Source of the DNA: a virus
Length of the DNA: 36,518 bases
Virus record (IMG/VR): IMGVR_UViG_3300022602_000011
Location: 1-36,518 of that record
Strand: one strand, 5' to 3'
Shown: one piece after another, positions 4,878 through 33,138 of the stretch
Position numbering within the stretch: position 1 is the stretch's first letter
How the letters are laid out: every line of letters starts with the position of its first letter
Program-made: the position numbers and the translations under genes
The notes under the pieces: model-generated
Told to the model about the DNA's origin: nothing
The model's database searches: none
What the model saw: only the letters and a program-made list of their open reading frames with translations

Positions 4878-5062
4878 TAGTCGTAGTCGGGGCCTTTTAG
4901 TGCGGATTTAATATCCAACACCAATTGCTCTATACGGTCTATTTTGGTATCCATTCGATCCAGGCGCTCGACTACGCCTTGATATCGTTCTTCACATTCG
5001 GTAAGATGATCTTCTAGCGTGGGAATTGTGAGTGTGACCACTTTATTCACTGTTGCGTCCAT
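4871..5062 (-). CDS. Small coiled-coil protein at the end of the late unit
   Basis: The frame is open further upstream, inside the Dps gene, but the likely start is ATG 5062 (63 aa) or, with a better SD (AAGG, 8 nt), GTG 5068 (65 aa). Both overlap the Dps gene slightly. The body, HLTECEERYQGVVERLDRMD and on to about residue 52, has heptad-like Leu/Ile/Val spacing typical of a short coiled coil. Phage XhlA-type lysis accessory proteins have a similar charged coil but end in a membrane helix, and no such helix is present here. Function unknown. Confidence 0.6.
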   Translation of the reverse strand: MDATVNKVVTLTIPTLEDHLTECEERYQGVVERLDRMDTKIDRIEQLVLDIKSALKGPDYDYQ

Positions 5063-5525
5063 TTGCACTGTGTCGGCCTTCTTGACCCAAGGTGGCTTCC
5101 AGTTGCCAGCAGTATTTGGCAATCCGTTGAATATGGTCGGCAGCCATGTTTGACACATCGGGATAATTAAAAATCTTGCCCGACTGATCCATTTCGTGGT
5201 AAACATCAATCAATTTATACAAGTCATCCAACACTGTTTGCATTAGGTCTTCGGCATCCAGTGCTGGTAAACTGTCATACACTTCACTGGTGCCCATTAC
5301 CATGCCAATGGTTTCTGGCACATGTGTGGCACCACAAGCCAGGATCTCTTCGGCCAAGACATCAATGTTGTCTTGTAAGTATTGATATATCTTTTTTAAC
5401 AACTTGTGATCTTGATAAAAATTGCGTCCACGCACATTCCAGTGTGCCATGTGTGCCTTGTAGTAGGTCACAAAGTTTGTGGCAAATACTCGTTCCAGTG
5501 TTGAGTATAATTCATTTAAATCCAT
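5043..5525 (-). CDS. Dps-like ferritin (DNA-binding protein from starved cells family)
   Basis: A 160-aa four-helix protein of normal Dps length. The signature AHWNVRGRNFYQDHK (residues 27-41) and DNIDVLAEEI (52-61) match the Dps ferroxidase region. Compared with E. coli Dps, H51, H63, D78 and E82 are kept as H28, H40, D55 and E59, but D67 is replaced by K44, so the iron site may be altered. Dps proteins form 12-subunit shells that oxidise and store iron using peroxide, and some coat DNA. Start: TAAGGAACTGAAATG, in which the stop of the preceding gene is fused to the SD. It therefore belongs to the late structural unit. The C-terminal tail (GQEGRHSANGRNSE) is hydrophilic. Confidence 0.88.
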   Translation of the reverse strand: MDLNELYSTLERVFATNFVTYYKAHMAHWNVRGRNFYQDHKLLKKIYQYLQDNIDVLAEEILACGATHVPETIGMVMGTSEVYDSLPALDAEDLMQTVLDDLYKLIDVYHEMDQSGKIFNYPDVSNMAADHIQRIAKYCWQLEATLGQEGRHSANGRNSE

Positions 5526-5534
5526 TTCAGTTCC

Positions 5535-6194
5535 TTATTGTGGTTGTATTGGTGTAATAGTTGGCGCCATTTGTCTACGACGAGCCAATTCGGCTTGTTC
5601 ATTGGCATTAGTTGTTGTTGGCATCATGCCTGCTAATCCTACTCCGCCTATTCTTGTTATTGGTGATGTTGCAATTGCTTTACCTGCATTAAGTGCAGAC
5701 TCTCCTGCTGATTGTAACATAGGTCTTGCACCATTAACAACTGTATGATATTTTTGTGCAATATTTTGTAAGAAAGTTTGTCCAACTTCACCTGCTTGTC
5801 CGCCAACTGAATTAGTTGGTGCAGATTTTAAAGCATTAAAAGTTTGTTGTTGTCCAATGTAACGATCATATAATGCTTGTCTAGCTGCGGTGATATCTCT
5901 AATTCCCGGAAGTCGATTAACTCCAGGAATATAAGATGCTGCTGCACCTGTTTCAATTGGATGTTGAACTGCAAAATGTGCAACTGGTTGTAATTGATTC
6001 ATTGCAGTTTGCACCGCACCCACAGCAGCAACCGGTGCACTTGGTGGTTGTGGTGTTTGTTGTGGCGGCGTAGTATCAACAGGTTGTTGTTGCACTTGAC
6101 TATGCAAATGTTGTAAACCTTCATCACTCAAGGCATCGGTGTTGCCGGCTTCGAGTGCTCGTAGATCTTCATCACTTAATTTGCTTAAATCCAT
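5535..6194 (-). CDS. Hypothetical virion-associated protein, 219 aa
   Basis: The start overlaps the stop of the M15-domain gene (TAATG). The N-terminus is short and acidic (MDLSKLSDEDLRALEAGNTD), resembling a small helical docking motif repeated as LSDEGLQHLHSQ. A Pro/Gln-rich linker follows (about residues 35-55), then an Ala/Gly-rich region with weakly hydrophobic stretches. No enzyme motif is seen. Its position after the ejection-type genes and its low complexity suggest a minor internal virion protein. It is translated just before Dps. Confidence 0.65.
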   Translation of the reverse strand: MDLSKLSDEDLRALEAGNTDALSDEGLQHLHSQVQQQPVDTTPPQQTPQPPSAPVAAVGAVQTAMNQLQPVAHFAVQHPIETGAAASYIPGVNRLPGIRDITAARQALYDRYIGQQQTFNALKSAPTNSVGGQAGEVGQTFLQNIAQKYHTVVNGARPMLQSAGESALNAGKAIATSPITRIGGVGLAGMMPTTTNANEQAELARRRQMAPTITPIQPQ

Positions 6195-8719
6195 TATTGT
6201 ATGCCTCTTCTTTTCTTTTCAGCAGCAATTTCTGCTTTGCTGGGTAAGTTACCCTTTAATCCTGCAGTGGCAGTTTCTCTATCTCGAGTTCGGCCAATAT
6301 TTAAAATCTGTTGTGCTGCTGGACCTAGATTGTTAGCAAAATCAGTTTGCTTGGTGGCATTTCGGTATTGGCGCTCCATTGCAGTGCCTTGGGCTGCCAT
6401 GAGTTCACGTGCTCGATCAAGAACTGCATGTAACTGTTGCGGACTATTAGCAGTTGCAAAGTCTTTTTGCAGAGCACCGCGTTCAGCACCTGTGCCGGCA
6501 CCACTGCCTAACACCGTCTTCATGATTTCATCGCCCACAATTTTCTTGGCAGCACTAAAATCAACTGGTGCAGTTTGTCCTGTGTTTTGTGCATACTCAT
6601 TTGCAATCTTGTTCCAGATTGGTAGATTGGTATTTTGCAAATTATCAATAACTGGACCCAGGCTGGCCACGTGTGCACTGGCTCGATCAAACTGTTGTAT
6701 CTGTTTGCTTTGTGCGCCACTAGTCCAATCTTTTCTTGCTTTCTCCACAGTCTTGAATGCCATGGCATCATAGGGTTTGCCTTGTTGTTGTGCAATTTCT
6801 TGCACACGAGCCTGTAACCATTTGTTACCAAGATTGTTGGCACCCATGCCGGTGGGCATGGGTTGTTCACCTCTATAAATTGCTTGTGCTTGTGCTTCAT
6901 ATGCAGGATTGCCCCTGCGTTCAACATCGCCCAATTGTCTTGCTCGTGTTTCGGCTGCTGCAGTTCTTTCAAAATGCCATGGTTCACTGGGCACCGTATT
7001 TCGAAATCCAGCTGCTTTTAATTTTTCAAGATTGGCCGGAGTGCGTTCTGATTCAGGAATATCAACTGCATTACGATTTTCGTGTGCACTTGTTCCTGGC
7101 TCTGCAGGACGTGTGCCCTTCATGCCACCAGCATACCATTGTGCTAATTGATTGGCTTGATCTTGATTGGTTCTTGTGCCACCATGTGGACTAATTTTAA
7201 TATCATTGGCACGTGCCCAATCTTCTGCGCTTTGTCCTGCGGCAGGAGCTGCTGCAGATGGTGTTGTTGCGGGTGCCGGTGTATTGGGATTGATTGCTCC
7301 GTTTTGATTTGCTTGTGTTTGTTCAGCAGCTCGATATGGAGCCAAGGCATTGGTCATTTCTGGAGCCAATATGCCGCCATTCAACAAGTGTGCTTTAACT
7401 GTATCTATATATTCATCACTGTAAATGGGTTGTAATCCGGCTTCAGTGGCCTTGATATTGCTGGCTCGCATGGCCTTGGCAGTGCTTTCGGCTTCGCTAA
7501 TTTGTGCTTTACCCACTGCCATCTTTTGCCAATCTTGTTGATTGATTGGAGCTAGATCTGTGGGAGCACTGGCTAGAGCTTGACCTGTGGTCAAGTTCAT
7601 GAGTCTTGGTTTGGTTTCACCTTTAACAAATGCAGCACTGATAATATCACCATTCTTGGTTTTATACAAGGTCTTACCAACTTCACTATCTTTCATGTAG
7701 TTGGCACCTGCACTGGCCAATTGATTGGCATCCAGTTCCTGTCCGGTTTTTAAATCAACACCGTGTGTGGCCACATTGTCTCCGCGCATACGCACAAGAT
7801 ATTGTTCGCCATTGGGCATGATCACCTGTTGCATGTGACTACCAGCACCCAATTTGATTTGTTCTTGGTGCGCTAGATCACTTAGTCCCAGTCTATGATA
7901 CATGTAGGCTTTTAGATAACTGCCTTCAGGTTCATTTCGATTAATGATATTGGCAATGCCTTTGCTGTCATTTGCGGCCAACAATGCCTTGGCTTTTTTC
8001 TCAGCATCCATTTGGCCTTGTGTTTGTTGGGTTAATTCAAGCAAACGTCGATTGGCAAGATCTTTGTGTTCAGGTGTTACACCCTCTTCATCACGAAGCT
8101 TCATTAATTCAGTTGGATTGTCTTGTGCTTGCAACAAGCGACCAGTAAAGTCACCCTGTGCGGCCACTGGAGCAGCAGCCGGAGCTGGAGCAGCAGCCGG
8201 AGCCGGAGCACCTGCCACTGTTTGATTGACCGGTAATGCCGCAACTGATGGTTCGGCAACAGCAGCAGGTTCAACTGGAGCAGCGGGCATAGCAGGCATA
8301 GCTGGCGCCGCACCCATGGGCACATTACTGGCAGCAGGATTTAGACCTGCTCCTGTGGGCATGGTGGGAGTTGGTGCAACTGCGGGCATGACAGGAGCTG
8401 CTGGTGCTGGAGCTGGAGCAGACATTTGTGGCATTGCAGGTTGTGCTGGCATTTGTGGTGCCGGCGCATAATTTGTTTGTGGCATGGGCGACTGCAAACT
8501 AGGCAACTGTTGTGCCATGGGCAATGCACTTGCTGTTGGTGCCACTGGTGCCATGGGCATGGCCTGTGCACTCTGTTGTGGTGCTTGATACGCATTGGCT
8601 TGTGGCGCAGTAGAAATTGCAGGTGCACCGGTTGCCCCACCAACTTGCATGTTACCTAGGAAACTACCAACGCTGGAATCACCAGACATTAAATTGTAGA
8701 TATCATTTACTGTTGTCAT
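6194..8719 (-). CDS. Large internal virion protein with M15 peptidase domain
   Basis: An 841-aa protein. Residues 30 to about 185 are Pro/Ala/Met/Gln-rich and probably disordered. Residues about 500-590 contain an M15 (VanY/D-Ala-D-Ala carboxypeptidase-like) zinc peptidase: GTSAHENRNAVD gives H546 and D553, and SEPWHFE gives the catalytic E579 and H582. The rest is helical (IADLARQLGDVERRG-type sequence, then a Gln/Ala-rich C-terminus). Such domains in ejected virion proteins open peptidoglycan during DNA entry, as the gp16 transglycosylase does in T7. It is the only cell-wall hydrolase seen in the genome and could also serve at lysis. Start: stop-SD fusion TAAGGACAACAATG. Confidence 0.85.
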   Translation of the reverse strand: MTTVNDIYNLMSGDSSVGSFLGNMQVGGATGAPAISTAPQANAYQAPQQSAQAMPMAPVAPTASALPMAQQLPSLQSPMPQTNYAPAPQMPAQPAMPQMSAPAPAPAAPVMPAVAPTPTMPTGAGLNPAASNVPMGAAPAMPAMPAAPVEPAAVAEPSVAALPVNQTVAGAPAPAAAPAPAAAPVAAQGDFTGRLLQAQDNPTELMKLRDEEGVTPEHKDLANRRLLELTQQTQGQMDAEKKAKALLAANDSKGIANIINRNEPEGSYLKAYMYHRLGLSDLAHQEQIKLGAGSHMQQVIMPNGEQYLVRMRGDNVATHGVDLKTGQELDANQLASAGANYMKDSEVGKTLYKTKNGDIISAAFVKGETKPRLMNLTTGQALASAPTDLAPINQQDWQKMAVGKAQISEAESTAKAMRASNIKATEAGLQPIYSDEYIDTVKAHLLNGGILAPEMTNALAPYRAAEQTQANQNGAINPNTPAPATTPSAAAPAAGQSAEDWARANDIKISPHGGTRTNQDQANQLAQWYAGGMKGTRPAEPGTSAHENRNAVDIPESERTPANLEKLKAAGFRNTVPSEPWHFERTAAAETRARQLGDVERRGNPAYEAQAQAIYRGEQPMPTGMGANNLGNKWLQARVQEIAQQQGKPYDAMAFKTVEKARKDWTSGAQSKQIQQFDRASAHVASLGPVIDNLQNTNLPIWNKIANEYAQNTGQTAPVDFSAAKKIVGDEIMKTVLGSGAGTGAERGALQKDFATANSPQQLHAVLDRARELMAAQGTAMERQYRNATKQTDFANNLGPAAQQILNIGRTRDRETATAGLKGNLPSKAEIAAEKKRRGIQ

Positions 8720-18153: not shown

Positions 18154-21100
18154 TTAAGCTGTGTAACTACCGCTACCGGTAAATGTCAATATTGTGGCGG
18201 GCCCTGAAGTGGTAACTGTGACATTGCCGCCTCCAGTGTAGGTGCCAGGATAATTTGCAGTGGGAATTGACATAACAACAACTCCGGATCCACCATTGCC
18301 GGATTGTGCTACACGAGCAGTTGAATTACTGGTTCCACCAGCTCCACCTCCGCCTCCGGTATTGGGTGTGGCATTGGTTCCTGTTCCTGCCACACCACTT
18401 GGGCCACTATATCCACCAGCACCGCCGCCGCCTTTACCACCTGAAGCTGCTGGACCTGATCCTAGACCTTGAGTTCCTCCGCCGCCGCCGCCACCAAGAT
18501 AATAAACGGGTCCACAAGCAACGCCCGCAGTAGATCCTGCAATTGGGTTGGTTTTACCAGCTCCACCGCCGCCACCACCACCAGTTGTTGTAGATCCTGG
18601 CGCACCAGAACCTTGTCCACCACCAACAGCACTGGCTCCGCCACCGCCACCGCCTCCATAACCTGGTGCATTTTGTGGTGCTCCGGTTCCACCTGCGAAA
18701 CCTTGTCCGGAAGTGCCGGAATTGCCAGGCTGACCGCCGGCACCACCACCACCTGATCCACCTGATAGAGCAGTAACAGTGCCTGGAGTATTACCAGCTC
18801 CGCCTCCGCCTCCACCAATGACAGTTTGACTAAATGCACTAGAACAAGCACCAGATCCTCCCACATACAAGCCCGCTGTGCCGGGATTGGGAGCTCCACC
18901 AGCCCCGCCACCACCCACTATGATAGGATAGGAAGTGCATGGCGACAAAGTAACATTACCACTCACGAATCCGCCGGCTCCGCCTCCGCCTCCGCCTCCT
19001 AGTCCTGAACCACCACCAGCACCACCAGCCATAATCAAGTAATTGATACTGTAAGGAACTCTTGGATTCAAGGATTGACTAAACTTATACCATGTGCTAT
19101 CAACTCCGCTATACCATTCCGGGCTTTTAATATCGGTATTGAAACGAATCATGCCATTGGCAGCAAAAGTGGGTCTAGTGCTATTGCCACCAATTGGTAT
19201 TTGCCATCCATCGGTGTATCCGGTGGCATGTGGCAAGTAAGTGCTTACACACACGTTGGCATAACTGCCACCTCCACCGCCACCTGTGCTATAAGCAACA
19301 CCATTGCTCCAGAACACACCGTTAGTGGTAATGATGTTGCTAAATGCACTAACATTGTTGGCATAGATTGTGATGGCATCTGTGGCCGAATTATTTGTGA
19401 CCAAGTGTATCACATTGGCAGTTGTGGTGCCTAACACCAAGTCACTGTTTTGTCCATACACATAAGTGGCATTGGGTAAACCAAAACTGCCAGTGCCGGT
19501 GTTGAAACCCGAACTGTTGATACCAAAATCACCGTAAAATGCAGTGGCATTGCCCCGATCATTTGATACAACAAAGTCGGTAGATGCCGAACCACCTGAA
19601 TTGGTGTTTTGCATCACAACCTGTGCATAATTGTTTTGGCTGGTAGAGTAACTGGCAAATATGTCTACGTCTGCGTAATTCAAACGTCCATAACTGAATG
19701 CACCAATATTGCTATTGGTTAAAAATAAACCATCTAGGGCTGTGTATAGATTGGCCTGTATGTTGCCAGTATAGGTTGGCATGACCACATTCACATAAGG
19801 TGCACCATTGGGATAAAATACGCCATTTGTGGTTGTAATATTGCCTGCAGACACAGTGTTGGCAATTGTGACATATCCGGTGCCCAAACCTTGAACTGTA
19901 AGATTGCTGTTGATATAAACTGGTGCACTGTTAAACACTGTGCCACCGGTATATTGAAACACTGCCCAATTACCCTGTGCTGCGGTATTACCATACAATG
20001 AATTAATGGTCAAAGTATCGGCTGGACTGCCGTCACTGATTCGTAAAGTGATATTGGGTGCAAATATGTTGCCGCTGGTCAAGTTACCATTTAAATTGCC
20101 CACATAAGTTGGCAGATAAACAGCCACATTGGCATTTCCATAATTACCTTGCACACCGGATAAAATGTTTATACCATTGGCATAGGTAAATGCAGCGCCG
20201 GATACTGTGTTGGTGACAGCAATATTGTCCGATTTGATATTGGCATTGGCTATCACATTGTTTGCTATGACAGTATTTTGCACAGTAAGATTACCGGATT
20301 GCGTATTGCCACGAACCAGTAAATCGCCTGCATTGACCCACAAGGCGGGTGTGCCGGCCGCAATGGTTCCTGAACCGCCCACAGTTACATTGTTAGTAAG
20401 TGAAACAACACCATCAGCTCTTAAGGTTGTAAACCAAGCTGGATTTGCACCATTATCAATAAATGCTGCCACTTGTGTATTACCATAATTGCTCACAATA
20501 CCGGTCAATTGACTACCATTACCATAAAAGTAATTGGCAGTGATACCAGTAGCAGCAGTAATGTTAGCCACAGTGGTATTACCATTTAATTGTATAGGTT
20601 GTGCATTAACTATTAATGATCCACCATCAATTTGAACACCATTGTAAGCTGCCAATTCTATATTGTGAGCTGTTAGAGTTATGATACCAGAATTGGTAAT
20701 TTGTCCCGAATAGGCATTGATATTAACTATGCCTGGTCCAGTAGCAATATTACTTTGAATAGTTATAGGATTGGTGGTTATAATGTTGCCACCAAGAGCA
20801 CTAAATTGCACATTGGCATAAGTTTCAAATGCACCCACATTGGCGTCAAGCGTGTTAAGGTGTGTGTATATTGCACCCACATTGGCATTGCTGTAAATTT
20901 GGAAGGCACCCAAATTGGCCTGTGTGGCTATGTTGCCAAGATACAATGTTCCAATATTGGCATTGGCATAAATTTCATATGCACCCACATTGGCATTCAA
21001 GGTATTAAAATTTGTTGCTTGTGTGGACAAATTGGCATTGGCATAAGTTTCATATGCACCCACATTGGCATCTAGTGTGTTCAAATGATTATAGATACCG

Positions 21101-22572
21101 CCAATGTTGGCATTGGCATAAATTTCATATGCGCCCACATTGGCTGTGAGCGTGGCAAGATTTAATGAAATGGTTCCAATATTGGCATTGGCATAGGTTT
21201 CAAATGCTGCCACATTGGCCGAAAGAGCATTGATAGCAGTTTGTTGACTGGCAGCATTGGCATTGCTATAAATTTCAAATGCGCCCACATTGGCAGTCAA
21301 GGTATTCAAATTAGTGACCACTGTGCCTAGGTTGGCATTGGTTGCTGTTTCATATGCGCCCACATTGGCATTTAATGAATTAATAGCAACGGCTTGAACG
21401 GCAGCATTGGCATTTGCATAAGTTTCATATGCACCTAGATTGGCGTTAATGGTTGCTATTTGTGTGTTGGCATAAGTTGCATAACTGACAAGATTGGCCT
21501 GCACATTCACAATAGCGGCATTGGCAGCAGTGACATTGGCATCTATACCAAGTATTGTTGGATCGGTGCCGGCAGCCAAATATGCAGCCACATTGGCGTT
21601 GCCGTAATTGCTATCACCAAAATGTATATTGGCGTAAGTTTCAAATGCAGTCAAATTGGCCTGCACAGATACGATAGCAGCATTGGCAGCAGTGGTATTG
21701 GCCACAAGTCCAAGAATAGTGGGATCGGTGCCAGCAGCCAAATAGGCAGTGACATTGGCATTGCTGTAGGTGCTGGTGCCACCACCAAACACAACAGGTT
21801 GTCCATTGGCCCAAAGATAATTGTTGGTCAATACAGCACCAGCACTTACAGTTCCAGTGTATCCCGGTAAGAATGCTGCCACGTTGGCATTGCTGTAACT
21901 GCCTGCATTGCCAGTGGACACAATACCGGTCAAATAATAACCGTTACCACGAAAGAATCTTGCAGTCACATTGCTGGTGGCCGTGATGTTGTTGGCTGCG
22001 ATATTGCCAGTATACACAGGCAAATAGGCTGCCACATTGGCATTAGAATAGGTCACGCCCGGAATGCCGGTGATATAATAACCATTACCAGTAAAATAAG
22101 CAGCATTTACGTTGCCAGTATTGGTAATCAAATAGGCTGCCACATTGGCATTGCCATAGGTCTGTGCCGAACTGGGCACTGTGCTGATACTGGTTATGCG
22201 TCCATCTGCGCCTACGGTCAAGACTGGCACATCACCGGCGTCACCAAATGTGCCTGCGGTCACACCCGAAGCTGATATGATTGTGTTGATGGTGCCAGGC
22301 ACTGTGCCTGTGCCCACCACATTGCCTACAAGGGTCACAACGCCGCCTCCACCACCGCCTCCACCAGCATTGCCAGCGAAATAACTGTAAACTGTGGTAT
22401 AGCCAGTTGCGGGGTCTAGAGCAAAATTCACATTGCCATTGTTGTCTAGAATATTCAACAACTGTTGTGCTGAATTCAACACAGTGACATTGCCGGAACC
22501 GATATAAAGTCCGGGTGTATCATTCACAGAAACTGTGCTTGTGTTGCCTGTAAAGCCGTATAAACCTGCCAT
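18154..22572 (-). CDS. Giant tail fibre with repeat shaft and glycine-rich tip, 1472 aa
   Basis: The largest gene of the window. The N-terminal 270 residues hold repeats ending in GNGYYITGI/GNGYYLTGI, a known fibre motif. Residues 269-376 are two 54-residue tandem units and 377-576 are eight 25-residue units, probably a coiled shaft. The middle section has further GNGSQLTGI and beta-type segments. Residues about 1180-1425 are a glycine-rich domain (runs such as GGGGGGGAGG) with polyglycine character, as in phage adhesin tips like T4-type gp38, ending TYTGGGNVTVTTSGPATILTFTGSGSYTA. Expected role: host-receptor binding. Start: stop-SD fusion TAAGGATTTAGCATG. Confidence 0.85.
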   Translation of the reverse strand: MAGLYGFTGNTSTVSVNDTPGLYIGSGNVTVLNSAQQLLNILDNNGNVNFALDPATGYTTVYSYFAGNAGGGGGGGGVVTLVGNVVGTGTVPGTINTIISASGVTAGTFGDAGDVPVLTVGADGRITSISTVPSSAQTYGNANVAAYLITNTGNVNAAYFTGNGYYITGIPGVTYSNANVAAYLPVYTGNIAANNITATSNVTARFFRGNGYYLTGIVSTGNAGSYSNANVAAFLPGYTGTVSAGAVLTNNYLWANGQPVVFGGGTSTYSNANVTAYLAAGTDPTILGLVANTTAANAAIVSVQANLTAFETYANIHFGDSNYGNANVAAYLAAGTDPTILGIDANVTAANAAIVNVQANLVSYATYANTQIATINANLGAYETYANANAAVQAVAINSLNANVGAYETATNANLGTVVTNLNTLTANVGAFEIYSNANAASQQTAINALSANVAAFETYANANIGTISLNLATLTANVGAYEIYANANIGGIYNHLNTLDANVGAYETYANANLSTQATNFNTLNANVGAYEIYANANIGTLYLGNIATQANLGAFQIYSNANVGAIYTHLNTLDANVGAFETYANVQFSALGGNIITTNPITIQSNIATGPGIVNINAYSGQITNSGIITLTAHNIELAAYNGVQIDGGSLIVNAQPIQLNGNTTVANITAATGITANYFYGNGSQLTGIVSNYGNTQVAAFIDNGANPAWFTTLRADGVVSLTNNVTVGGSGTIAAGTPALWVNAGDLLVRGNTQSGNLTVQNTVIANNVIANANIKSDNIAVTNTVSGAAFTYANGINILSGVQGNYGNANVAVYLPTYVGNLNGNLTSGNIFAPNITLRISDGSPADTLTINSLYGNTAAQGNWAVFQYTGGTVFNSAPVYINSNLTVQGLGTGYVTIANTVSAGNITTTNGVFYPNGAPYVNVVMPTYTGNIQANLYTALDGLFLTNSNIGAFSYGRLNYADVDIFASYSTSQNNYAQVVMQNTNSGGSASTDFVVSNDRGNATAFYGDFGINSSGFNTGTGSFGLPNATYVYGQNSDLVLGTTTANVIHLVTNNSATDAITIYANNVSAFSNIITTNGVFWSNGVAYSTGGGGGGSYANVCVSTYLPHATGYTDGWQIPIGGNSTRPTFAANGMIRFNTDIKSPEWYSGVDSTWYKFSQSLNPRVPYSINYLIMAGGAGGGSGLGGGGGGGAGGFVSGNVTLSPCTSYPIIVGGGGAGGAPNPGTAGLYVGGSGACSSAFSQTVIGGGGGGAGNTPGTVTALSGGSGGGGAGGQPGNSGTSGQGFAGGTGAPQNAPGYGGGGGGGASAVGGGQGSGAPGSTTTGGGGGGGAGKTNPIAGSTAGVACGPVYYLGGGGGGGTQGLGSGPAASGGKGGGGAGGYSGPSGVAGTGTNATPNTGGGGGAGGTSNSTARVAQSGNGGSGVVVMSIPTANYPGTYTGGGNVTVTTSGPATILTFTGSGSYTA
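18240..19040 (-). repeat. Glycine-rich adhesin-tip region
   Basis: The 3' part of the large fibre gene encodes long Gly runs separated by short Ala/Ser/Thr/Asn and Pro-rich loops (VIGGGGGGAGNTPG; GGGGGGGASAVGGGQ). This matches polyglycine-helix receptor-binding domains of phage fibres. The DNA has repeated CCACCGCCGCC-type tracts, prone to slippage and therefore to rapid host-range change. Confidence 0.8.
20845..21444 (-). repeat. Eight 25-residue (75-bp) tandem repeats
   Basis: Eight in-phase units of consensus ANVGAYExYANANIGxxxxx (25 residues in full) run without a gap, and a ninth partial unit starts at 20844. A 25-residue period equals 7+7+11, a spacing that can form a nearly straight coiled coil. 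The fixed Tyr/Phe at unit position 6 and aliphatic residue at position 14 are likely core positions. Confidence 0.9.
21445..21768 (-). repeat. Two 54-residue (162-bp) tandem units
   Basis: Two adjacent units start Y[SG]NANV[TA]AYLAAGTDPTILG and continue AANAAIVxVQANL. They abut the 25-residue repeats exactly at 21444/21445. The DNA is also similar (GATCGGTGCC on the plus strand at 21561 and 21723, 162 bp apart), indicating duplication. Confidence 0.9.
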
Positions 22573-23980: not shown

Positions 23981-24562
23981 TTAATCTATTTTACTTTTTC
24001 TATTCTCTGGATAATTGTCAGCATATGCGGCAACACGGCTATTGGTGGCTCGGGTAAGACCTTTGTTCCAAGCCTGTCGGTGTGCGGCTCGCCTTGCCTC
24101 ACTCCATGGTTGACCTTTATTGGCTAAACTTTTTTTAAGTCTTGTCTCATCACTTTGTTTGTGTCCTATTTTAGCTTGTCGTAATTTTTCTTTATGCTCT
24201 TCTGACATTTTTTTGCCATTCCAATGACCAGGTTTTCCTTTTTTAGCATCTGATGTATTTTTTGATACCACTACTATATCAACATTATCAGGGCTATATG
24301 GTCCAATATCACCTCGACGTGCCATGCAGTATTGACCTTTTTTACGACCACGCTCATTCCATTTACCAGAGTCACACCACATCTTCCACCAGGTGTCAAA
24401 TGTAAACAGCCAATCTATTTTTCTTTTGTCTGCTTGACATTTTTGTTGTATGTAACGTTGTCTAGGTATTTGAGTAATATCTAATTGTTTGTCTAAGCGA
24501 ACTTTTTCTTTAAGTTGTCGAAGTTCTATTTCAAGTTCTTTAATTCTTTGTAATTCATTCAT
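23981..24562 (-). CDS. NUMOD3-containing putative homing endonuclease
   Basis: The start at 24562 (193 aa) is chosen over 24601 because GGAG lies 7 nt upstream and the longer form would begin inside the terminator hairpin. The N-terminal 30 residues form a coiled coil. The core WWKMWCDSGKWNERGRKKGQ, then YCMARRGDIGPYSPDNVDIV, is a pattern I know from HNH-associated phage proteins. Residues 115-169 hold three NUMOD3-like DNA-binding motifs (GKKMSEEHKEKLRQAKIGHK; SDETRLKKSLANKG; SEARRAAHRQAWNKG). No full H-N-H triad is visible, so the nuclease centre may be degenerate or of another type. The gene is visibly more AT-rich than its neighbours and sits between hairpins, as expected of a freestanding mobile gene next to the capsid gene. 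Confidence 0.78.
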   Translation of the reverse strand: MNELQRIKELEIELRQLKEKVRLDKQLDITQIPRQRYIQQKCQADKRKIDWLFTFDTWWKMWCDSGKWNERGRKKGQYCMARRGDIGPYSPDNVDIVVVSKNTSDAKKGKPGHWNGKKMSEEHKEKLRQAKIGHKQSDETRLKKSLANKGQPWSEARRAAHRQAWNKGLTRATNSRVAAYADNYPENRKSKID

Positions 24563-24577
24563 TTCTAATCTCCAATA

Positions 24578-24609
24578 AAAAAGGAGCACTATTTCTAGCA
24601 CTCCTTTTT
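24578..24609 (-). terminator. Strong terminator after the major capsid gene
   Basis: Minus-strand RNA forms AAAAAGGAGUGCUA / GAAA / UAGUGCUCCUUUUU: a 14-bp stem, with two wobble pairs that exist only on this strand, capped by a GNRA tetraloop and followed by U. It lies 47 nt after the capsid stop, so it should limit read-through to the downstream genes and boost the relative output of capsid. Confidence 0.9.
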
Positions 24610-24655: not shown

Positions 24656-26017
24656 TCAAAACGAGTTGTTGTCCCATGCATTCAAGCGAACAACATTGCT
24701 TGCAGCACGAGTGCCACCAACGATAGTTGATGCACCACCATTGCCTGAACCAAAGCTAACAGATTGACCTGTTGAGCTGATGTCATGCAATACTGCAACG
24801 CCAGCTGGGTTACGAACAATTAATGTTCCTTCTAGAATGAACTGGTCCAAACTAGCGTCAGCGTTCGAGAACACTTCGTTGTTTGGTCCTAGGTCACGCA
24901 ATGAACCCCACTGTAGAACTTCTTCGTCCAAGAAGTAGATCTGGTTACCACTACCTACTTGATCCATGATCCAAGAATCGAAAATCTGGTATGTGTAGTT
25001 GAAGTCGCCTTCGTATGTGGCAATTGTGTCACCACGCTCGCTGTTTACACGGTTGATACTACGGCTTGTAGGCATTGTGTCGCTTAGGTGTGTGCGTAGG
25101 CTTGTTGGGCAAACGATTGTGCGGATTTTCGCATTGAAACGTTGCTCAGCAGTTGTAACCAATTGCTTATACAAGCTAGGTGCAAATTGTTGCAATGTGC
25201 CTGTGTAACTATAGAAGCTGCTTCCTAGGCCTTCACCTGTGTTGCTTAATGAACCACTTGATAGTGAACCACCAACAGTCCAAACGTTTGCATTGCCTTG
25301 TGTGGTAACATCGCTTGACTCAGTGTTGAACACTGTGTAATATGTGCTTCCTGCGGCAGGGTTGAAACTGTGTGTTCCAGCAAATGCATTCAATGAACCC
25401 ATTCTACGACCCAATGCGCTAGAGTAAGTTGTTACTCCAACTGTGTAACCTGCAACTCCATAAGCACTACCAACTGTTACGTTAGCATTTGTGTTATTTG
25501 GGTTTGCATCGCCTGTGGGATATGTGAACACTGTTGCAGGAATACCAATACCAGCAGCAATACCGCTTTGGCCTGAATACTTGGTTCCGATTTGGTCAGC
25601 ACGAACGATTTGTGCTTCAACGTCGAACATCAATTCGATCAATTGCTTGACTTCTTGATATGCTTGTGGATCTCCACCTGATTGCTCAACTGCACGAGCT
25701 GTGCCAGTTGCACCAACTACAGTCGAGAAAATCTGTGTGTAGTTGCCCAAGTTAGCACGTTGGTTTTGTTCAACTTGAGCTGAACTAACTGCTGCACCTT
25801 CTTGTTGTGCTTGAGTTTGTGGTAAACGATATACGTCATTTGACCACAATGGTAGTGTGCTAACTACTTTACGCTTTTTGGCCATACACATGTTCAATAC
25901 AGGTGTATCGTCTTTAACGCGATTACTTACATCTAAATCTAAATCTTTAACAACGATATCGGTTTGGTATAGACCTGTTCCATTGCCGATAGCGGATGTG
26001 CTAATAAAACTTGACAT
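24656..26017 (-). CDS. Major capsid protein (SU10/DUF5309-like)
   Basis: A 453-aa protein directly after scaffold and portal genes, as expected for a capsid gene. The C-terminal region GDTIATYEGDFNYTYQIFDS, then NQIYFLDEEVLQWGSLRDLG and DQFILEGTLIVRNPAGVAVL, matches the layout of the SU10 major capsid family (DUF5309), an HK97-fold group. The N-terminal region (VKDDTPVLNMCMAKKRKVVSTLP) and ANLGNYTQIFSTVVGATGTA fit too. Residues about 165-265 carry a Gly/Thr/Asn-rich insertion. The SD is the best of the unit (TAGGAGAACCAAATG), in keeping with high output, and a strong terminator follows. It assembles the icosahedral or prolate shell. Confidence 0.88.
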   Translation of the reverse strand: MSSFISTSAIGNGTGLYQTDIVVKDLDLDVSNRVKDDTPVLNMCMAKKRKVVSTLPLWSNDVYRLPQTQAQQEGAAVSSAQVEQNQRANLGNYTQIFSTVVGATGTARAVEQSGGDPQAYQEVKQLIELMFDVEAQIVRADQIGTKYSGQSGIAAGIGIPATVFTYPTGDANPNNTNANVTVGSAYGVAGYTVGVTTYSSALGRRMGSLNAFAGTHSFNPAAGSTYYTVFNTESSDVTTQGNANVWTVGGSLSSGSLSNTGEGLGSSFYSYTGTLQQFAPSLYKQLVTTAEQRFNAKIRTIVCPTSLRTHLSDTMPTSRSINRVNSERGDTIATYEGDFNYTYQIFDSWIMDQVGSGNQIYFLDEEVLQWGSLRDLGPNNEVFSNADASLDQFILEGTLIVRNPAGVAVLHDISSTGQSVSFGSGNGGASTIVGGTRAASNVVRLNAWDNNSF

Positions 26018-27647: not shown

Positions 27648-29951
27648 TTAGAAAGCACGGGCTTTGTGTTCGCCCACTAGGCTGAAGCCATCCAACTGCA
27701 TCTTGGCACTGTTGCCAGCAACATCGGCTTCGATCTGTTGTGCTCGTGCAGCATCCAATTCGGTCTTGGCCTGTTTGTTTTGTATGTCAGCTTGTTGTGT
27801 GGCCTGTGCCATCTGCATCTGTTGTTGATGTGCCTGTTGTGCTGCCTGTTGTGCCTGCTTGACCATGTCTGTGGCTTCTTGCTCGGTTGGCAAATAGTTG
27901 TCGGCATCTTTAACGCCCAGGACATACAACATGTCTTCGTAAGGCTTGCGCAGCTTCTTGAATCCTGTGGGTGTAAGTGCATTGGTCTGTGCCAATTGTG
28001 CAATTTCACCTGCCATGCCTTGTTGTGCTTGTTTAATGATCTGCAAGCGTTGTAGACTGTTTTCTTCCGACTTCATGCCTAGTGCAAGATCAACATGTAT
28101 GGTCTTGCGTTCGTTAAAGTTCATGTCATCAAATGCCTTGTAGTCCATGAATTCCGGCTTGCCTTCGGGATGGAACTGTGCAGCCAATTGCTTGACACCG
28201 TAATCATCGCCGTGTGCTATTAGAGTTCTCCAGATCAACCAGATGGCATCCTTCAAGCCTTCAGCACAGTTCTTAACAGTGTTGTCTTGGATCACTTGAT
28301 TGGGGCTTAGGGCCAGATTCAATTTGGCACCGCTGTTGCCGGGATCCATTACTTCAGGATTGAACACATCTTGTGGACTTGTCATGCCCACCATGGCCAT
28401 TTGATCCTGTTGGATACGATTCATGGCTTCTTCAATAAAGGTGATGTTGCCTGAAGGTGGAGGAATTTGATATATGTCAGTTGCAGGATTGAACTTGCTG
28501 TCTAGGATAAAGATTGCAGCATCGCCATCGGCCAGTTCTTCAAAGTCCAAGCGGTCAGGTTTGGCACCAATTCTAGGTGTTGCAGTCAACAGGCCTAAAC
28601 TTAATTCGGCTCTATAACCCGATGTCATGTATTCCTGCATGGGAATTACTGATTCAGCAATGGCCATACCGTAAAAGTTCTGTGACAATGGTTTCGGAAC
28701 CATGTTGGCCACTGGGATGAATTCTACTTCCCTAGCAGAGATAACATATTGTCCACTGTAGATGAGTTCAACAAGTTCCAACTCTCCATCATTATCAATA
28801 TCGTAACGATTCCAAACAGTAAGAACAGTGACTTGTCTTGCTTCAGGCTCCTGAGCACTATAGCCTTGTGCAGGAAGTCCGTTAATAGGCACACTATCCC
28901 GAGCATGAAGAGCCAAATTGTTAAGGAGTGATCCAGCTTGATATGAACCAACATTGGAATATTCGGCATAGACTTTAAACTCCTCTAGGTCAATGTCAGG
29001 ATACAGTTCATAGGCTTCCTGTATGCTCATGGGCTTGTAGAATCCACAGAAGGGTTGTTCTTCTATCGAGATCACAGTAGGGTCGCACATCCAATAGTGT
29101 TGTGCAATTGGGCGGAACCGGATGTTTAAATTGAATCCAGTTAGTTTGTATTTGGCTTCGTAAATGGTGTTGCGTGCAATACTGTCTTGTATGTGATCTT
29201 GTGCTGGTTCCAGACTTTGGCGATCAGCTGGAGTGGTGTCAGGTGCGGTTCCAGACTCGGGATCAAATGCTTCGGATTGATCAATGATCTTTTGCAAGTT
29301 GGCTTCGTGTTGTGCACGTGGTAGGTCTTGCACAAACTGATGTGTTTCTTGTGCAACCTTGGTCAGGTCCACATGTTTCTTTCTACGGCTTGAGCGTAAG
29401 GCAGTTAGGCCTTTGTCAGCAGCCTGTTGCTCAAATGCTCGCAACTGATCCAAGGTGCCTTCGGTGGTGATATAACGCACAAAACTTTCACGCATGGGAG
29501 CAACCAACATCTCACCATTCTTGTGCAAGCAAGCATCCATGACCCAGTGTTGTAGGATAAAGTGTGGATCATTGTTTTGGTTGATCAGCTTGTGCACCAT
29601 GTTGGTGGCCTGTCGTGCTGCCGCTTCGTCGTCTTCGTTGTCGGCTACAAATTCAAAATTGATCTCGCCATTTTGTGCAATACCTTTTGTGATCACTGCT
29701 GTTGCGTAATCAACTACTGGTTTTACAACGGGATGAATATAGTCCAGGCCATTAACAGGATCAGTAGAATCATTAACTGGCAATACTAGATAGTGATAAT
29801 CACTGGTTCTATTGATGTTGTTCTTGGTAGCAAGTAAACGCAAGTTAGCAGCACACTTTTGATCCAGCAAACTTTTCATTTTGACAAAACGGGCCATCAT
29901 GCCTGAATGTCCATTTAAGTTACTGATCACAACATTTTTTAAATCTAACAT
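27648..29951 (-). CDS. Portal protein, 767 aa
   Basis: A large protein immediately after the large terminase gene. The N-terminal part (residues 1-250) is mixed with acidic helices. The central part (FNLNIRFRPIAQHYWMCDPT; SIEEQPFCGFYKPMSIQEAY; VLTVWNRYDIDNDGELELVE; PLSQNFYGMAIAESVIPMQE; PSGNITFIEEAMNRIQQDQM) matches podovirus portals, with the conserved YGMAIAESV wing/stem region. The last 80 residues are a Gln/Ala-rich helical barrel (QAQQAAQQAHQQQMQMAQAT), as in P22-type portals with a long C-terminal barrel. A ring of 12 subunits at one capsid vertex binds the terminase and adaptor. The SD before 29951 is weak (GAGA). Confidence 0.88.
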   Translation of the reverse strand: MLDLKNVVISNLNGHSGMMARFVKMKSLLDQKCAANLRLLATKNNINRTSDYHYLVLPVNDSTDPVNGLDYIHPVVKPVVDYATAVITKGIAQNGEINFEFVADNEDDEAAARQATNMVHKLINQNNDPHFILQHWVMDACLHKNGEMLVAPMRESFVRYITTEGTLDQLRAFEQQAADKGLTALRSSRRKKHVDLTKVAQETHQFVQDLPRAQHEANLQKIIDQSEAFDPESGTAPDTTPADRQSLEPAQDHIQDSIARNTIYEAKYKLTGFNLNIRFRPIAQHYWMCDPTVISIEEQPFCGFYKPMSIQEAYELYPDIDLEEFKVYAEYSNVGSYQAGSLLNNLALHARDSVPINGLPAQGYSAQEPEARQVTVLTVWNRYDIDNDGELELVELIYSGQYVISAREVEFIPVANMVPKPLSQNFYGMAIAESVIPMQEYMTSGYRAELSLGLLTATPRIGAKPDRLDFEELADGDAAIFILDSKFNPATDIYQIPPPSGNITFIEEAMNRIQQDQMAMVGMTSPQDVFNPEVMDPGNSGAKLNLALSPNQVIQDNTVKNCAEGLKDAIWLIWRTLIAHGDDYGVKQLAAQFHPEGKPEFMDYKAFDDMNFNERKTIHVDLALGMKSEENSLQRLQIIKQAQQGMAGEIAQLAQTNALTPTGFKKLRKPYEDMLYVLGVKDADNYLPTEQEATDMVKQAQQAAQQAHQQQMQMAQATQQADIQNKQAKTELDAARAQQIEADVAGNSAKMQLDGFSLVGEHKARAF

Positions 29952-29985: not shown

Positions 29986-31623
29986 TCACCTAACTCCACC
30001 GTCTGTTGTCCATGCACGTTTCCAAATAGGTCGATTGTTGTCGCGTTGTGCTTGATGCACTTTAAAATTGTGCTTGGCTGCTGCAAATCTTGCTTGTGGA
30101 CTGCGATTGTCCCAGGGTTCGGCCAAGCCCTGCAAACAACCTATAAGCGCATAACGTGCTGAATCTATGCAATCGTCGGGATCACTAAAGCGACCTTTCT
30201 CGTCCACATAATAATTTTGTGCCTCACGCAAAAACTCCACACAGTTTTCATTCACATGCAGGGTGCCCAGTTCCAGCATTTGGCGCATGACATTGATACC
30301 AAAACTTTTATGATTGGTTCTGCGTCCTTGATCGTCCGGTGGGTTCATGATGGCATCGGGATGCACATTGAGTTCGTATTCTTCAAAGAACTCGCGCAGG
30401 CTTTGTGCACTCATGGTGTATCTTCCTTGCGAGTTGGCATCAGCTGGTAGCATGATGGGTGTGCCAAACACTTCGGGTCGCATGAGGTGATTGATATAGT
30501 TCATGGGATTGGCTTCTTCGGTGCCTTTCACAACAACCTGTGTGTGCAACCAAGCTTCTTGTTCTTCAGGATGCCAATACATTAGGCTAATGACTGTCTT
30601 GTCATTTACCAAGCCCAAGTCCAAGGCAATGATCCTGTGTAGACCATGTGTGTTGCGGAAGTCGTAGTCGCCGGTTCGATAAGTGGGCCAATTGCGTATT
30701 TGAAACACTGCACCTTTGCCCATTACCGGAACACCATTGCGTCTAGCATCACGCTCGTGTGGCAAGTAATCTCTTTCCAGTTGCAAACGTGTGGCCATCA
30801 ACAAGAATGGTTCGCCCCAGGGATCGTATTCGGGCACATCATCCCAGCTAACTCGAATGTGTTCATAGCCTTCTTCCTGGTGCCAGAACTTTGACACTAA
30901 TCCATTTAGACCTTTAAGCGGTGTGAAACTGCAAAGCACTTGACCTTGTGTGGTGGCAGTTCTAGTTACAATTTCTGAGAAGAAGTCATCGGGTGGTTGT
31001 TCATCAAACACTGCCAGGTTCAATTTAAAACCCTGCATCTGACGAACTTCTTGTGTGTAGTTGGCAAATAGCAAATAGCTATTGGCTCCGCTTGTATGTC
31101 GAATTTCTACACCAATACAGTTGGCACCATCCGAGCGCATGGTGTCGAACCTTATGCAGTCTCTGGGAATGGCTCCAGTGCCGATGTTTTCTCGTATCTT
31201 GACATCGTTAGTGCCCAGCAATTCATTCTGTAATACTAGAGCAACTTGGCTCCAACCTTCGCCGGCTACCATGGCAGTCACCGGCTTCGTGAAACGTTTG
31301 GCCTTGGCCGGCCACCACGCAGGATATCGACCAGTTAGGTGCATGGCAGTTTCATAACAGGTCGAAACAGTTTTACCAATTCTGTTTGCAGCTAGTATGC
31401 CTCTACGATCACTTGCGCCAGTTTCAAAGAAACGCATCTGATGTGCAAATGGTCTGAAATACTTGAGCTGATTGAACTGCATATCATCACGTATGGCAAT
31501 GCAGGCTTCTTCAAAGCGTGTCTTGGCCTCAAACGGCATGTGATGCAGGTTGTTGACTGCAAGATGATTTTCATCGCACACACTGCGAACAGCATGGCGC
31601 ATCAACACTGCGGGATCTAGCAT
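29986..31623 (-). CDS. terL: Terminase large subunit
   Basis: A 545-aa DNA-packaging motor. Walker A: AANRIGKT at residues 78-85. Walker B: LNLAVFDEQ at 201-209, with D207 and E208. A coupling segment VLCSFTPLKG follows at about 229-238. The nuclease domain begins IIALDLGLVNDKT (D335), with DPDDCIDSARYAL (D484, D487) near the C-terminus. All key residues are present. It cuts concatemeric DNA and pumps it into the procapsid through the portal. ATG at 31623 overlaps the preceding stop (TAATG). If DNA is packed by the headful mechanism, this fits a circularly permuted genome. Confidence 0.96.
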   Translation of the reverse strand: MLDPAVLMRHAVRSVCDENHLAVNNLHHMPFEAKTRFEEACIAIRDDMQFNQLKYFRPFAHQMRFFETGASDRRGILAANRIGKTVSTCYETAMHLTGRYPAWWPAKAKRFTKPVTAMVAGEGWSQVALVLQNELLGTNDVKIRENIGTGAIPRDCIRFDTMRSDGANCIGVEIRHTSGANSYLLFANYTQEVRQMQGFKLNLAVFDEQPPDDFFSEIVTRTATTQGQVLCSFTPLKGLNGLVSKFWHQEEGYEHIRVSWDDVPEYDPWGEPFLLMATRLQLERDYLPHERDARRNGVPVMGKGAVFQIRNWPTYRTGDYDFRNTHGLHRIIALDLGLVNDKTVISLMYWHPEEQEAWLHTQVVVKGTEEANPMNYINHLMRPEVFGTPIMLPADANSQGRYTMSAQSLREFFEEYELNVHPDAIMNPPDDQGRRTNHKSFGINVMRQMLELGTLHVNENCVEFLREAQNYYVDEKGRFSDPDDCIDSARYALIGCLQGLAEPWDNRSPQARFAAAKHNFKVHQAQRDNNRPIWKRAWTTDGGVR

Positions 31624-31886
31624 TAGAAACCTTGTCTGATTCGATTTAGTCGTTCGGCTGCGTCAGCTAGGTCAGCAATCTCCACTGTGCTCATGCGCCA
31701 AGTGTCGGGACGGCTGGGATCAACGCCATCGCGCTTGTCCAGTCCGGCTTGCAAGCGTTCCATCACAAGACGCAGGCAGTGTTCGACCTGACCCGGAAAC
31801 TTTTCTGCAAAGGCTTCGCGATGCACACGATTCACCTTTTGCAAAATGCGTGTTTCACTTATGAGTTTGATTTGTTCTTGATCCAT
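31623..31886 (-). CDS. Small protein upstream of terL, 87 aa
   Basis: The frame is open to 31937, but the ATG at 31886 overlaps the stop of the SOD gene (TAATG) and is preferred. The protein (MDQEQIKLISETRILQKVNR... to MSTVEIADLADAAERLNRIR) is all-helical and charged. Its place directly before terL is where small terminase subunits often lie, but it is short and shows no helix-turn-helix, so this is only one possibility. The protein at 35574-35933 is the other candidate. Confidence 0.6.
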   Translation of the reverse strand: MDQEQIKLISETRILQKVNRVHREAFAEKFPGQVEHCLRLVMERLQAGLDKRDGVDPSRPDTWRMSTVEIADLADAAERLNRIRQGF

Positions 31887-32392
31887 TACATTAACGCCAA
31901 GCGGTCCTCGATGTGTGACCAATTCATAATCTTCCAAATGTTATCTAAGTATTCGTCCTTTTTCCATTCATAGTCAAGGGCGTAGGCATGTTCCCACATG
32001 TCAATTAATATTAGAATATCATTTTCAATTTTATGATTGTGTATGGTTTTAACTTTGCCATCTGTGCTCAAATAGACCCAACCACTTCCCTGCAGTTTTA
32101 ACGCTTCATCTTTTATTATGGCTCGTAATCCAGTTAGACTATTAAAATGTTTTTTGATTAGTTCTAGTGTTAATGGTCCGGGCGTGCCGCCCGCTCCAGG
32201 ATGACAAAACTGTGTAAAATAAATGTCGTGTAAAAATGCACCTGCATGATTGAATGCGGGACTGATGTGTTTATTATAGTTGTCCACATAGCGTTTATAC
32301 AAATGACCCCAATGATAGTTTAGGGTCTCGGCACTTTTCACAGGCTCCAATGCAGTTTCACTGTAGGGCAAGGGTGTGCGTTTTAATTCCAT
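31886..32392 (-). CDS. Fe/Mn-type superoxide dismutase
   Basis: A 168-aa SOD, somewhat shorter than the usual 190-210. LPYSETALEPVKSAETLNYH (residues 8-27) matches the family N-terminus. The four metal ligands are H27 (YHWG), H55 (FLHDIYF), D131 and H135 (DMWEHAYALDY). Y35 and the GSGWVYL segment (W105) are kept. At the second-sphere positions, G51 replaces FeSOD Gln69 and H120 takes the place of MnSOD Gln146, the Gly/His pattern of mycobacterial and archaeal enzymes. It converts superoxide to peroxide and oxygen, in the cytoplasm since no signal peptide is visible. Start: TAATG at 32392 rather than 32407. It is coupled by TAATG junctions to both neighbours in the packaging unit. Length loss is in the loop after about residue 42. 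Confidence 0.93.
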   Translation of the reverse strand: MELKRTPLPYSETALEPVKSAETLNYHWGHLYKRYVDNYNKHISPAFNHAGAFLHDIYFTQFCHPGAGGTPGPLTLELIKKHFNSLTGLRAIIKDEALKLQGSGWVYLSTDGKVKTIHNHKIENDILILIDMWEHAYALDYEWKKDEYLDNIWKIMNWSHIEDRLALM

Positions 32393-33138
32393 TATGCAAC
32401 ATTCCAAGGATTGTCTAGACCATTTGTGGCATCACCAATAAAGAACTCTCTATCGATCCAAACATCCCAGTAGCTTTTGTTGTTGATCTTGGCCTTTGAC
32501 ATTTGTGCCTTGAGTCTTGTGCCCACTGGAGTCAGCATGCCGGTGCTGTTTCTAATCAATTGTTCACCAGTTCTTGGATCAACCCAGGTATACTTTTCTG
32601 GCACTTCCTTGCCAAACTTGTTTACTCTTGTGCCCACTGCACGTGTGCTTATGGGACCAATGATTTCATAAGTGATGGCATTGTTCACATACTTGCGGAA
32701 TACAACTTCACATTTTTGTCCTTGGCTGGCCCATTCTCTGTCGGGATGTGGAAATGTTTTGGAGATGTAACTCGAAACACATTGTTCATTAACAACTTCA
32801 ACAGGTCTAGCCGGCAAGCGTTTGAGTTCATCAACCGGTATTAGATCATTCTTATCCAAGTAAGGATTCTCGGTGCCCTTCATGTATTCTTCAGGTGCCC
32901 GGCCATTTAACACATCCATGGCAGTCTGATACTTGAACTTGTTGCTTCGACCTTTTAGATTCAACACATGGCCGGTCTGATCAAACACAAACTTCTCCAG
33001 CTCTCGGGCTGTGGGAAAGTCGGTCATTAAACCTTCTAGGTCATAAAGCGGTTCAGTTTCTACTGCGGTAGTGGCGGTGGTGTGTGCTGTATCTGACCAA
33101 GGATTGGTAGTAGCTGTGGTTTTTTTGGCTGTGGCCAT
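32392..33138 (-). CDS. Hypothetical protein, 248 aa
   Basis: The N-terminal 30 residues are Thr/Ala/Lys-rich and disordered. The remaining part (LEGLMTDFPTARELEKFVFD; YQTAMDVLNGRAPEEYMKG; LIPVDELKRLPARPVEVVNE; VGTRLKAQMSKAKINNKSYW) is globular, with mixed alpha/beta character and a C-terminal WDVWIDREFFIGD. No family is recognised and no catalytic motif is apparent. Start at 33138 with AAAGGA 9 nt upstream. It ends in TAATG with the SOD gene. Position in the packaging unit suggests a virion or packaging role. Confidence 0.65.
   Translation of the reverse strand: MATAKKTTATTNPWSDTAHTTATTAVETEPLYDLEGLMTDFPTARELEKFVFDQTGHVLNLKGRSNKFKYQTAMDVLNGRAPEEYMKGTENPYLDKNDLIPVDELKRLPARPVEVVNEQCVSSYISKTFPHPDREWASQGQKCEVVFRKYVNNAITYEIIGPISTRAVGTRVNKFGKEVPEKYTWVDPRTGEQLIRNSTGMLTPVGTRLKAQMSKAKINNKSYWDVWIDREFFIGDATNGLDNPWNVA

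Follow-up and report, generated by a model that had tools for sequence, protein, structure and literature searches.

The DNA analysed here (the window: a viral record of 36,518 bases whose source is described as a small, water-borne bacterial virus) carries on its minus strand an open reading frame at 31886..32392, with its ATG at 32392 and its TAA at 31888-31886, that encodes a protein of 168 aa. Superoxide dismutase (SOD) is an enzyme that cells use against toxic oxygen, and the original prediction, which named no strand, had placed a cytoplasmic-type Fe/Mn SOD with a complete metal site at these positions. A plus-strand reading is full of stops and was rejected; the minus-strand product, judged on its sequence, bears the assignment out. 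Both Pfam profiles of the family score over their cut-offs—Sod_Fe_C (PF02777) at 1.6e-21 (76.7 bits against 20.9) and Sod_Fe_N (PF00081) at 6e-8 (33.5 bits against 27), the latter match being confined to profile positions 6-42 of 82—and a PDB search returned 155 distinct sequences at E<=0.001, those listed being SODs or SOD-family proteins. The NCBIfam Fe-SOD model fell far under its cut-off (92 vs 348 bits), and no PHROGs family matched even at E 0.1, so that this library cannot classify the protein. Pairs with estimable dS gave a dN/dS of ~0.07-0.18, indicating purifying selection and hence a gene kept functional while present; together with recurrence of the SOD in independent metagenomes, this excludes a chance ORF or an assembly artefact.

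The gene is embedded in a co-directional packaging and head operon. Upstream lies a gene for a conserved 248-aa protein of no known family (32392..33138, minus strand), and downstream an 87-aa ORF, likewise without a known family (31623..31886, minus); in relatives it always sits immediately or almost immediately ahead of terL, a location that hints at a small terminase subunit. Beyond it come terL, the terminase large subunit (29986..31623, minus; Terminase_6N 9.6e-14, PHROG terL 3.6e-25), and SU10-type genes for the portal protein (27648..29951, minus; 8.8e-46) and the major capsid protein (24656..26017, minus; 6.2e-31). Three TAATG stop/start overlaps on the minus strand join the 248-aa gene to SOD (32390..32394), SOD to the 87-aa gene (31884..31888), and the 87-aa gene to terL (31621..31625). 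The first two are the overlaps originally predicted, and the same gene order recurs in several independent contigs of related phages. SOD had also been described as directly upstream of the terminase genes, but its direct neighbour is the 87-aa ORF, with terL next.

An AlphaFold2 model of the protein, built from a 44-sequence alignment of the window and its IMG/VR homologues, reached a mean pLDDT of 96.4 and superposed closely on solved SODs. VIA-align paired 167 of its 168 residues with 4br6 (Z 25.0, rmsd 1.3 Å), and comparisons with E. coli SodB and the P. gingivalis SOD gave Z 24.1-24.3 (Foldseek, VIA-align); the two-domain fold is the one common to cellular SodFM1-5 enzymes (P. gingivalis 1ues/1qnn, E. 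coli SodB 1isa, C. elegans MnSOD-3 3dc6; Z ~24-25). The four metal ligands (H27, H55, D131, and H135) are complete and, as predicted, occur together with Y35 and the GSGW segment (G102-S-G-W105). Across the 44-member phage alignment the ligands, Y35, and W105 are invariant, as are H120, W133, and E134, and phage and cellular enzymes alike have the four ligands and the equivalents of Tyr34, the GSGW Trp, Trp161, and Glu162. By model superposition, nearly the whole protein is SOD fold, with parts removed and none added. This bears on the idea that the SOD is packaged in or attached to the virion, acting at entry or shielding the particle from oxidants, which we regard as very improbable: expression from the packaging/head operon, as read from gene order, would suit it, poxviruses are reported to package redox proteins in their particles, and the record of the PA5oct homologue (EST35_0261) bears an ESI-MS/MS note, but the SOD fold accounts for all 168 residues and leaves no added virion-binding region, and the large-phage gene sits among metabolic genes. 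Moreover, the thymidylate synthase, GTP cyclohydrolase, ligase, and FtsH of PA5oct bear the same note, which therefore does not mark structural proteins only.

What the original prediction missed is that this is no standard SodFM protein, most of a hairpin, His30, and Tyr166 (human numbering) being gone. At 168 aa, compared with ~190-210 aa in cellular SodFM1-5, the compact form does without ~20 residues of the N-terminal hairpin and ~9 residues before the Asp ligand. Ligands 1 and 2 are thus separated by 27-29 residues in 91 of 93 parsed viral sequences—the exceptions being a full-length SOD (L034) and a sequence whose first ligand was probably mis-parsed (L221)—and by 47-63 residues in 53 parsed cellular ones, while the distance from the GSGW Trp to the Asp ligand is 26 residues in 92/93 parsed viral proteins versus 34-38 in the 53 cellular proteins. 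The changes extend to the second shell. Published outer-sphere residues of SOD include Tyr34, Trp123, Gln143, Trp161, and Glu162 (PMC5836015, PMC9208312); in the window protein Tyr34, Trp123, Trp161, and Glu162 are kept, Gln143 is replaced by His120, His30 by Leu31, and Tyr166 by Ala138, and the equivalent of Trp78 is Phe59. The His30 assignment is unambiguous, since helix 1 is free of gaps from the ligand His to Tyr34, and the position is Leu in 91/93 parsed viral sequences and in 0/53 parsed cellular ones. Tyr166, present in 53/53 parsed cellular proteins, is found in 2/93 parsed viral proteins, and loss of both residues together occurs in none of the 53 parsed cellular relatives. A further difference from cellular SodFM1-5 lies at the XD-2 position, where the 93 parsed viral SODs have Leu (88), Ile or Val (4), or Gly (1).

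Because the SodFM family is defined by fold and ligands, an incomplete outer sphere leaves membership intact; full catalytic equivalence does not follow. Within the family, the compact form was compared with the SodFM groups under the residue rules of Sendra et al. 2023 (PMC10172142). The C-terminal Gln of SodFM1 and SodFM5 is absent, its position being taken by the invariant His120, nor does a Gln precede ligand 2 by four residues, as the N-terminal Gln of SodFM2 does (E. coli Gln69); that stretch has Gly or Ala. His120 is the C-terminal residue that would hold the metal-bound water, and a C-terminal His at this site is shared with SodFM3 and SodFM4. The HXXXHH motif of SodFM3, or HXXXH with the last His lost as in SodFM4, is absent, however, and becomes HXXXLY or HXXXLA in 91/93 parsed viral sequences, while the hairpin that makes the SodFM3/SodFM4 tetramer contact is mostly gone through the ~20-residue deletion. 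Of 13 characterised enzymes considered in that study, 9 pair a C-terminal His with a preference for Fe, and Gly/Ala at XD-2 is Mn-favouring. By these rules the compact SOD would prefer Fe or be cambialistic, a soft prediction because Leu at XD-2, not being Gly/Ala, falls outside the residues covered by the rules applied here.

The loss of His30 is real evidence for doubt about catalysis. Fe/Mn SOD is among the most studied metalloenzymes, and an outer-sphere His with which this phage clade has dispensed is reported to be essential for its normal rates. In human MnSOD, k1 falls from 1.5 nM-1 s-1 in the wild type to ~0.005 in H30V, 0.2 in Y166F, and 0.1 in H30N/Y166F, with the H30V defect put down to steric blocking of the gateway (PMC9208312). 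Given that the His30/Tyr166 pair changed together and that the hairpin was mostly lost, the gateway may be built differently in the phage proteins, whose activity cannot be read from sequence.

Compact SODs form a large group in viruses, with homologues in at least 580 IMG/VR stretches by alignment-based search. In a tree of 119 SODs, which samples SodFM1-5 unevenly, the compact proteins fall on one side of a branch of length 1.2 with support 100, and the SODs from the slot before terL (described below) constitute one sub-clade nested among them (support 98); the window protein, >70% identical to L002, was thinned from this tree, with L002, L003, and L075 as its stand-ins. E. coli SodA and SodB served as reference rows in the alignment and the tree. 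We also scanned 84,980 bacterial and archaeal species (one genome each) using peptide patterns typical of the clade only and keeping the best 80 of 438 matches, a design in which rare cellular members are possible, and the best matches were full-length SODs ~26-35% identical. A single compact SOD emerged from these species genomes (L125; 42% identical, with its N-terminal part outside the same open frame), on an 89.5-kb contig (G040:C2) of a Methylophilaceae MAG that also carries a terminase, ClpS, a PTPS-like gene, and phage-like genes. This contig is probably phage DNA binned with a Methylophilaceae bacterium, which gives a hint of a host. Recent capture of the SOD from a bacterial host is accordingly unsupported, the species genomes offering full-length proteins at 26-35% identity and a sole compact match on a terminase-bearing contig; the best plasmid match, by identity alone, was 32% identical. 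The compact SODs thus form a large clade apparently confined to phages, as far as these comparisons reach. Separately, an 80-kb viral contig (L036) encodes at 6001-6390 a highly divergent SOD-like ORF (27% identity) that keeps DMWEH and LH though not the GSGW context, and is unlike both the compact and the cellular groups.

Phage SODs as such have already been reported: SOD, ferritin, and other ROS-defence genes are known from freshwater phages (PMC6802176), SOD from Microcystis viruses (PMC12542629), and Dps and Mn-catalase from gut phages (PMC8008677), and SOD is annotated in the records of MIJ3 and Callisto (as sodB in both) and of Vibrio phage 2.275.O. Isolates with the compact form include the PA5oct/MIJ3/Paride group and Vibrio phage 2.275.O; the PA5oct and Vibrio phage homologues have Leu at the His30 position like the window protein, on which a protein of an uncultured member of the Caudovirales (A0A6J5L7W0) superposes at TM 0.96. 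Recorded phage Fe/Mn SODs are 36-40% identical to that of the window, and none occupies the terL slot. The full-length SODs of some phage contigs (L034/L035, MW462191) belong to the same family but are of normal length, keep His30 and Tyr166, and group among cellular SODs in the tree, whereas the Cu/Zn SOD of lambdoid prophages (SodC, PMC2569942), also phage-borne, is periplasmic and has an unrelated fold and metal. In the open literature, with subscription journals mostly outside the search, we came across no account of the compact architecture or of the missing His30/Tyr166 pair, nor of the association with Fe-S carriers set out below.

The position of the gene before terL had been read as evidence that it is "not a stray cargo gene," and here the comparison with relatives points the other way. 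With the best 80 of at least 129 relatives in the terL search kept, 52 distinct junctions between the 248-aa gene and terL were recovered, and 7 contain SOD; most span ~270-360 bases with the small ORF only, and in others there are N6_N4_Mtase DNA methylases, TylF-type methyltransferases, or ORFs without an assigned function, inserted most often after the small ORF and ahead of terL. On the terL tree, SOD presence has to change 10 times, and well-supported branches force at least 7 of these changes; these counts include a few loci found via SOD itself, and the frequency of the gene is that of the junctions, 7/52. Two loci with nearly identical TerL proteins (L099 and L100) differ in SOD. At empty sites (L046 and L048) the two flanking genes meet in TAATG, and at filled sites (the window and L206) the arrangement is a scarless TAATG-SOD-TAATG, which is what exchange at an overlapping stop/start motif would yield. 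Since empty sites also carry TAATG, the coupling belongs to the slot itself and is no evidence of a functional link to terL. The SOD is therefore optional cargo at a conserved variable slot, dispensable in that most near relatives lack it, and the slot statistics and terL tree lead us to reject a core gene of the packaging operon. That SOD is coupled with the packaging genes holds insofar as it is co-directional and stop/start-coupled into the packaging/head operon; more generally, stop/start coupling beside terL should not be taken as evidence against cargo status.

Other occupants of the slot (L041, L052, L054, L069, L073, L074, L088, L098, and L106) include N6_N4 DNA methylases, TylF-type methyltransferases, and ORFs of 211-228 aa, the last with no Pfam match. 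Two contigs (G003, 54 kb, and G004, 50 kb; L037, L038, L004, and L005) each contain two different terL copies at a distance of ~35.3 kb, only one of which is accompanied by SOD. Such contigs either were assembled as chimeras from two related genomes with circular permutation or reflect a true tandem.

A second gene relevant to oxidative stress is present in the window. This Dps-like ferritin (160 aa; 5043..5525, minus strand) matches PF00210 at 2.1e-10 and aligns H28, H40, D55, and E59 with the ferroxidase residues of 1ji4; the NCBIfam Dps model matches it only under the curated cut-off. It occurs in 13 of the 24 other lineage records searched, including every other one >23 kb and SOD-less records such as G059-G062. 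The Dps-like ferritin is thus near-core in this podovirus-like lineage, and SOD is optional.

In other, mostly large phages the compact SOD has different company. An A-type (IscA/ErpA) Fe-S carrier (PF01521; 9.3e-18 for a representative) lies downstream of it in 46 of 73 non-redundant loci, mostly at positions +1 to +3, and NifU/IscU is nearby in 9/73. The linkage recurs in two gene orders, IF-1 / SOD / IscA / tail fibre and QueD / UvdE / SOD / IscA. Of the 8 contigs >130 kb that have the carrier, 7 place one copy no more than ~370 bp from SOD (6 or 7 cases, as G041 and G046 are possibly near-copies). In L125 and L298, SOD directly precedes SufB. The carrier was searched for in the window and eight slot records, several of them short, with no PF01521 match, and SOD-IscA linkage was therefore rejected as an explanation for the window. 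Superoxide destroys exposed [4Fe-4S] clusters and releases their iron, so that the pairing of SOD with Fe-S repair in large phages agrees with its pairing with Dps in the window's lineage. Around these loci, large-phage compact SODs are often near UvdE, IF-1, PTPS/QueD-like, and ClpS genes (L211-L279). On L125 (5326-10159), SufB, an ABC ATPase (SufC-like), a cysteine-desulfurase-like ORF, SufE, and glutaredoxin follow downstream, and the SufB of this phage-like contig matches 40 viral loci (L284-L323).

Taken together, these observations favour, with a probability of roughly 0.62, a minimal, metal-loaded, and catalytic SOD of SodFM fold that would be made late in infection to detoxify superoxide, carried as optional cargo. 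Judging from gene order, it would be made late as part of the head/packaging operon, through re-initiation at the TAATG stop/start overlaps. The product would adopt the two-domain SodFM fold with the hairpin and one C-terminal loop cut back, most likely as a dimer held by the conserved Glu134-His135' contact, given that little is left of the hairpin through which cellular enzymes make their tetramer contact. H27, H55, D131, and H135 would bind Fe or Mn, and His120 would hold the metal-bound water, following the rules in PMC10172142. Acting in the host cytoplasm, the enzyme would then turn superoxide into H2O2 and O2 and so protect Fe-S enzymes and others sensitive to superoxide during virion production, with H2O2 and free iron presumably handled by the phage's own Dps-like ferritin. 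The compact SOD may have reached the podovirus-like lineage from a large-phage pool and been exchanged at the slot before terL.

The main rival is a SodFM-fold metalloprotein without fast dismutation (for example, an iron donor, a metal-sensing partner for Fe-S assembly, or a protein of slow peroxide/superoxide chemistry), which we consider unlikely. Clade-wide Leu at the His30 position with loss of Tyr166, a combination foreign to the cellular relatives, fits it, as does the frequent linkage to IscA/IscU-type genes and, twice, to SufB; on the other hand, invariance of the ligands, Tyr35, both Trp residues, and the dimer-bridge Glu is more than metal binding alone needs, and the slot phages searched (the window and eight records, several of them short) carry SOD without the PF01521 carrier. 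With the His30/Tyr166 pair replaced by Leu and a small residue, the hairpin cut away, and His120 at the metal water, the clade could also, though this is doubtful, be an enzyme of SodFM fold that differs in function, relying on another proton route or running another reaction; in large phages it would then work within a superoxide-proof cassette devoted to Fe-S assembly, made up of SOD and IscA/IscU or Suf genes. An active compact SOD would represent a second solution for proton delivery and a smaller SOD scaffold, and a protein inactive as SOD a repurposed metalloprotein.

The gene set of compact SOD, Dps, and Fe-S carriers offers a handle on whether infection itself makes superoxide and iron stress. 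Alternatively, the SOD could guard the infected cell not against superoxide that infection generates but against outside or defence-related oxidative attack, be it from a grazer phagosome, from photochemical ROS, or from an abortive response linked to ROS. Superoxide crosses membranes poorly, and a cytoplasmic SOD cannot clear it externally; nothing in the window genome speaks directly for such attack, which makes this role improbable in our view, even though patchy SOD among near-identical phages fits a condition-dependent benefit and a role of this kind has been put forward for freshwater phages that encode SOD and ferritin among their ROS genes (PMC6802176). Host SOD can matter for infection, if weakly: on C. 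jejuni mutated in sodB, a T4-like phage plates at 0.30, a mild dependence that was not separated from peroxide stress (PMC6024767).

Elsewhere in the window, an HNH endonuclease is encoded at 2943-3518 (minus strand), and a NUMOD3-containing ORF at 23981-24601 (minus) lies directly behind the major capsid gene, where homing endonucleases are often found. The gene at 18154-22572 (minus) likely specifies a tail fibre: its 1472-aa product contains numerous diverged NANVAAYL / LxANVGAYETYANAN repeats and is rich in glycine in its C-terminal part.
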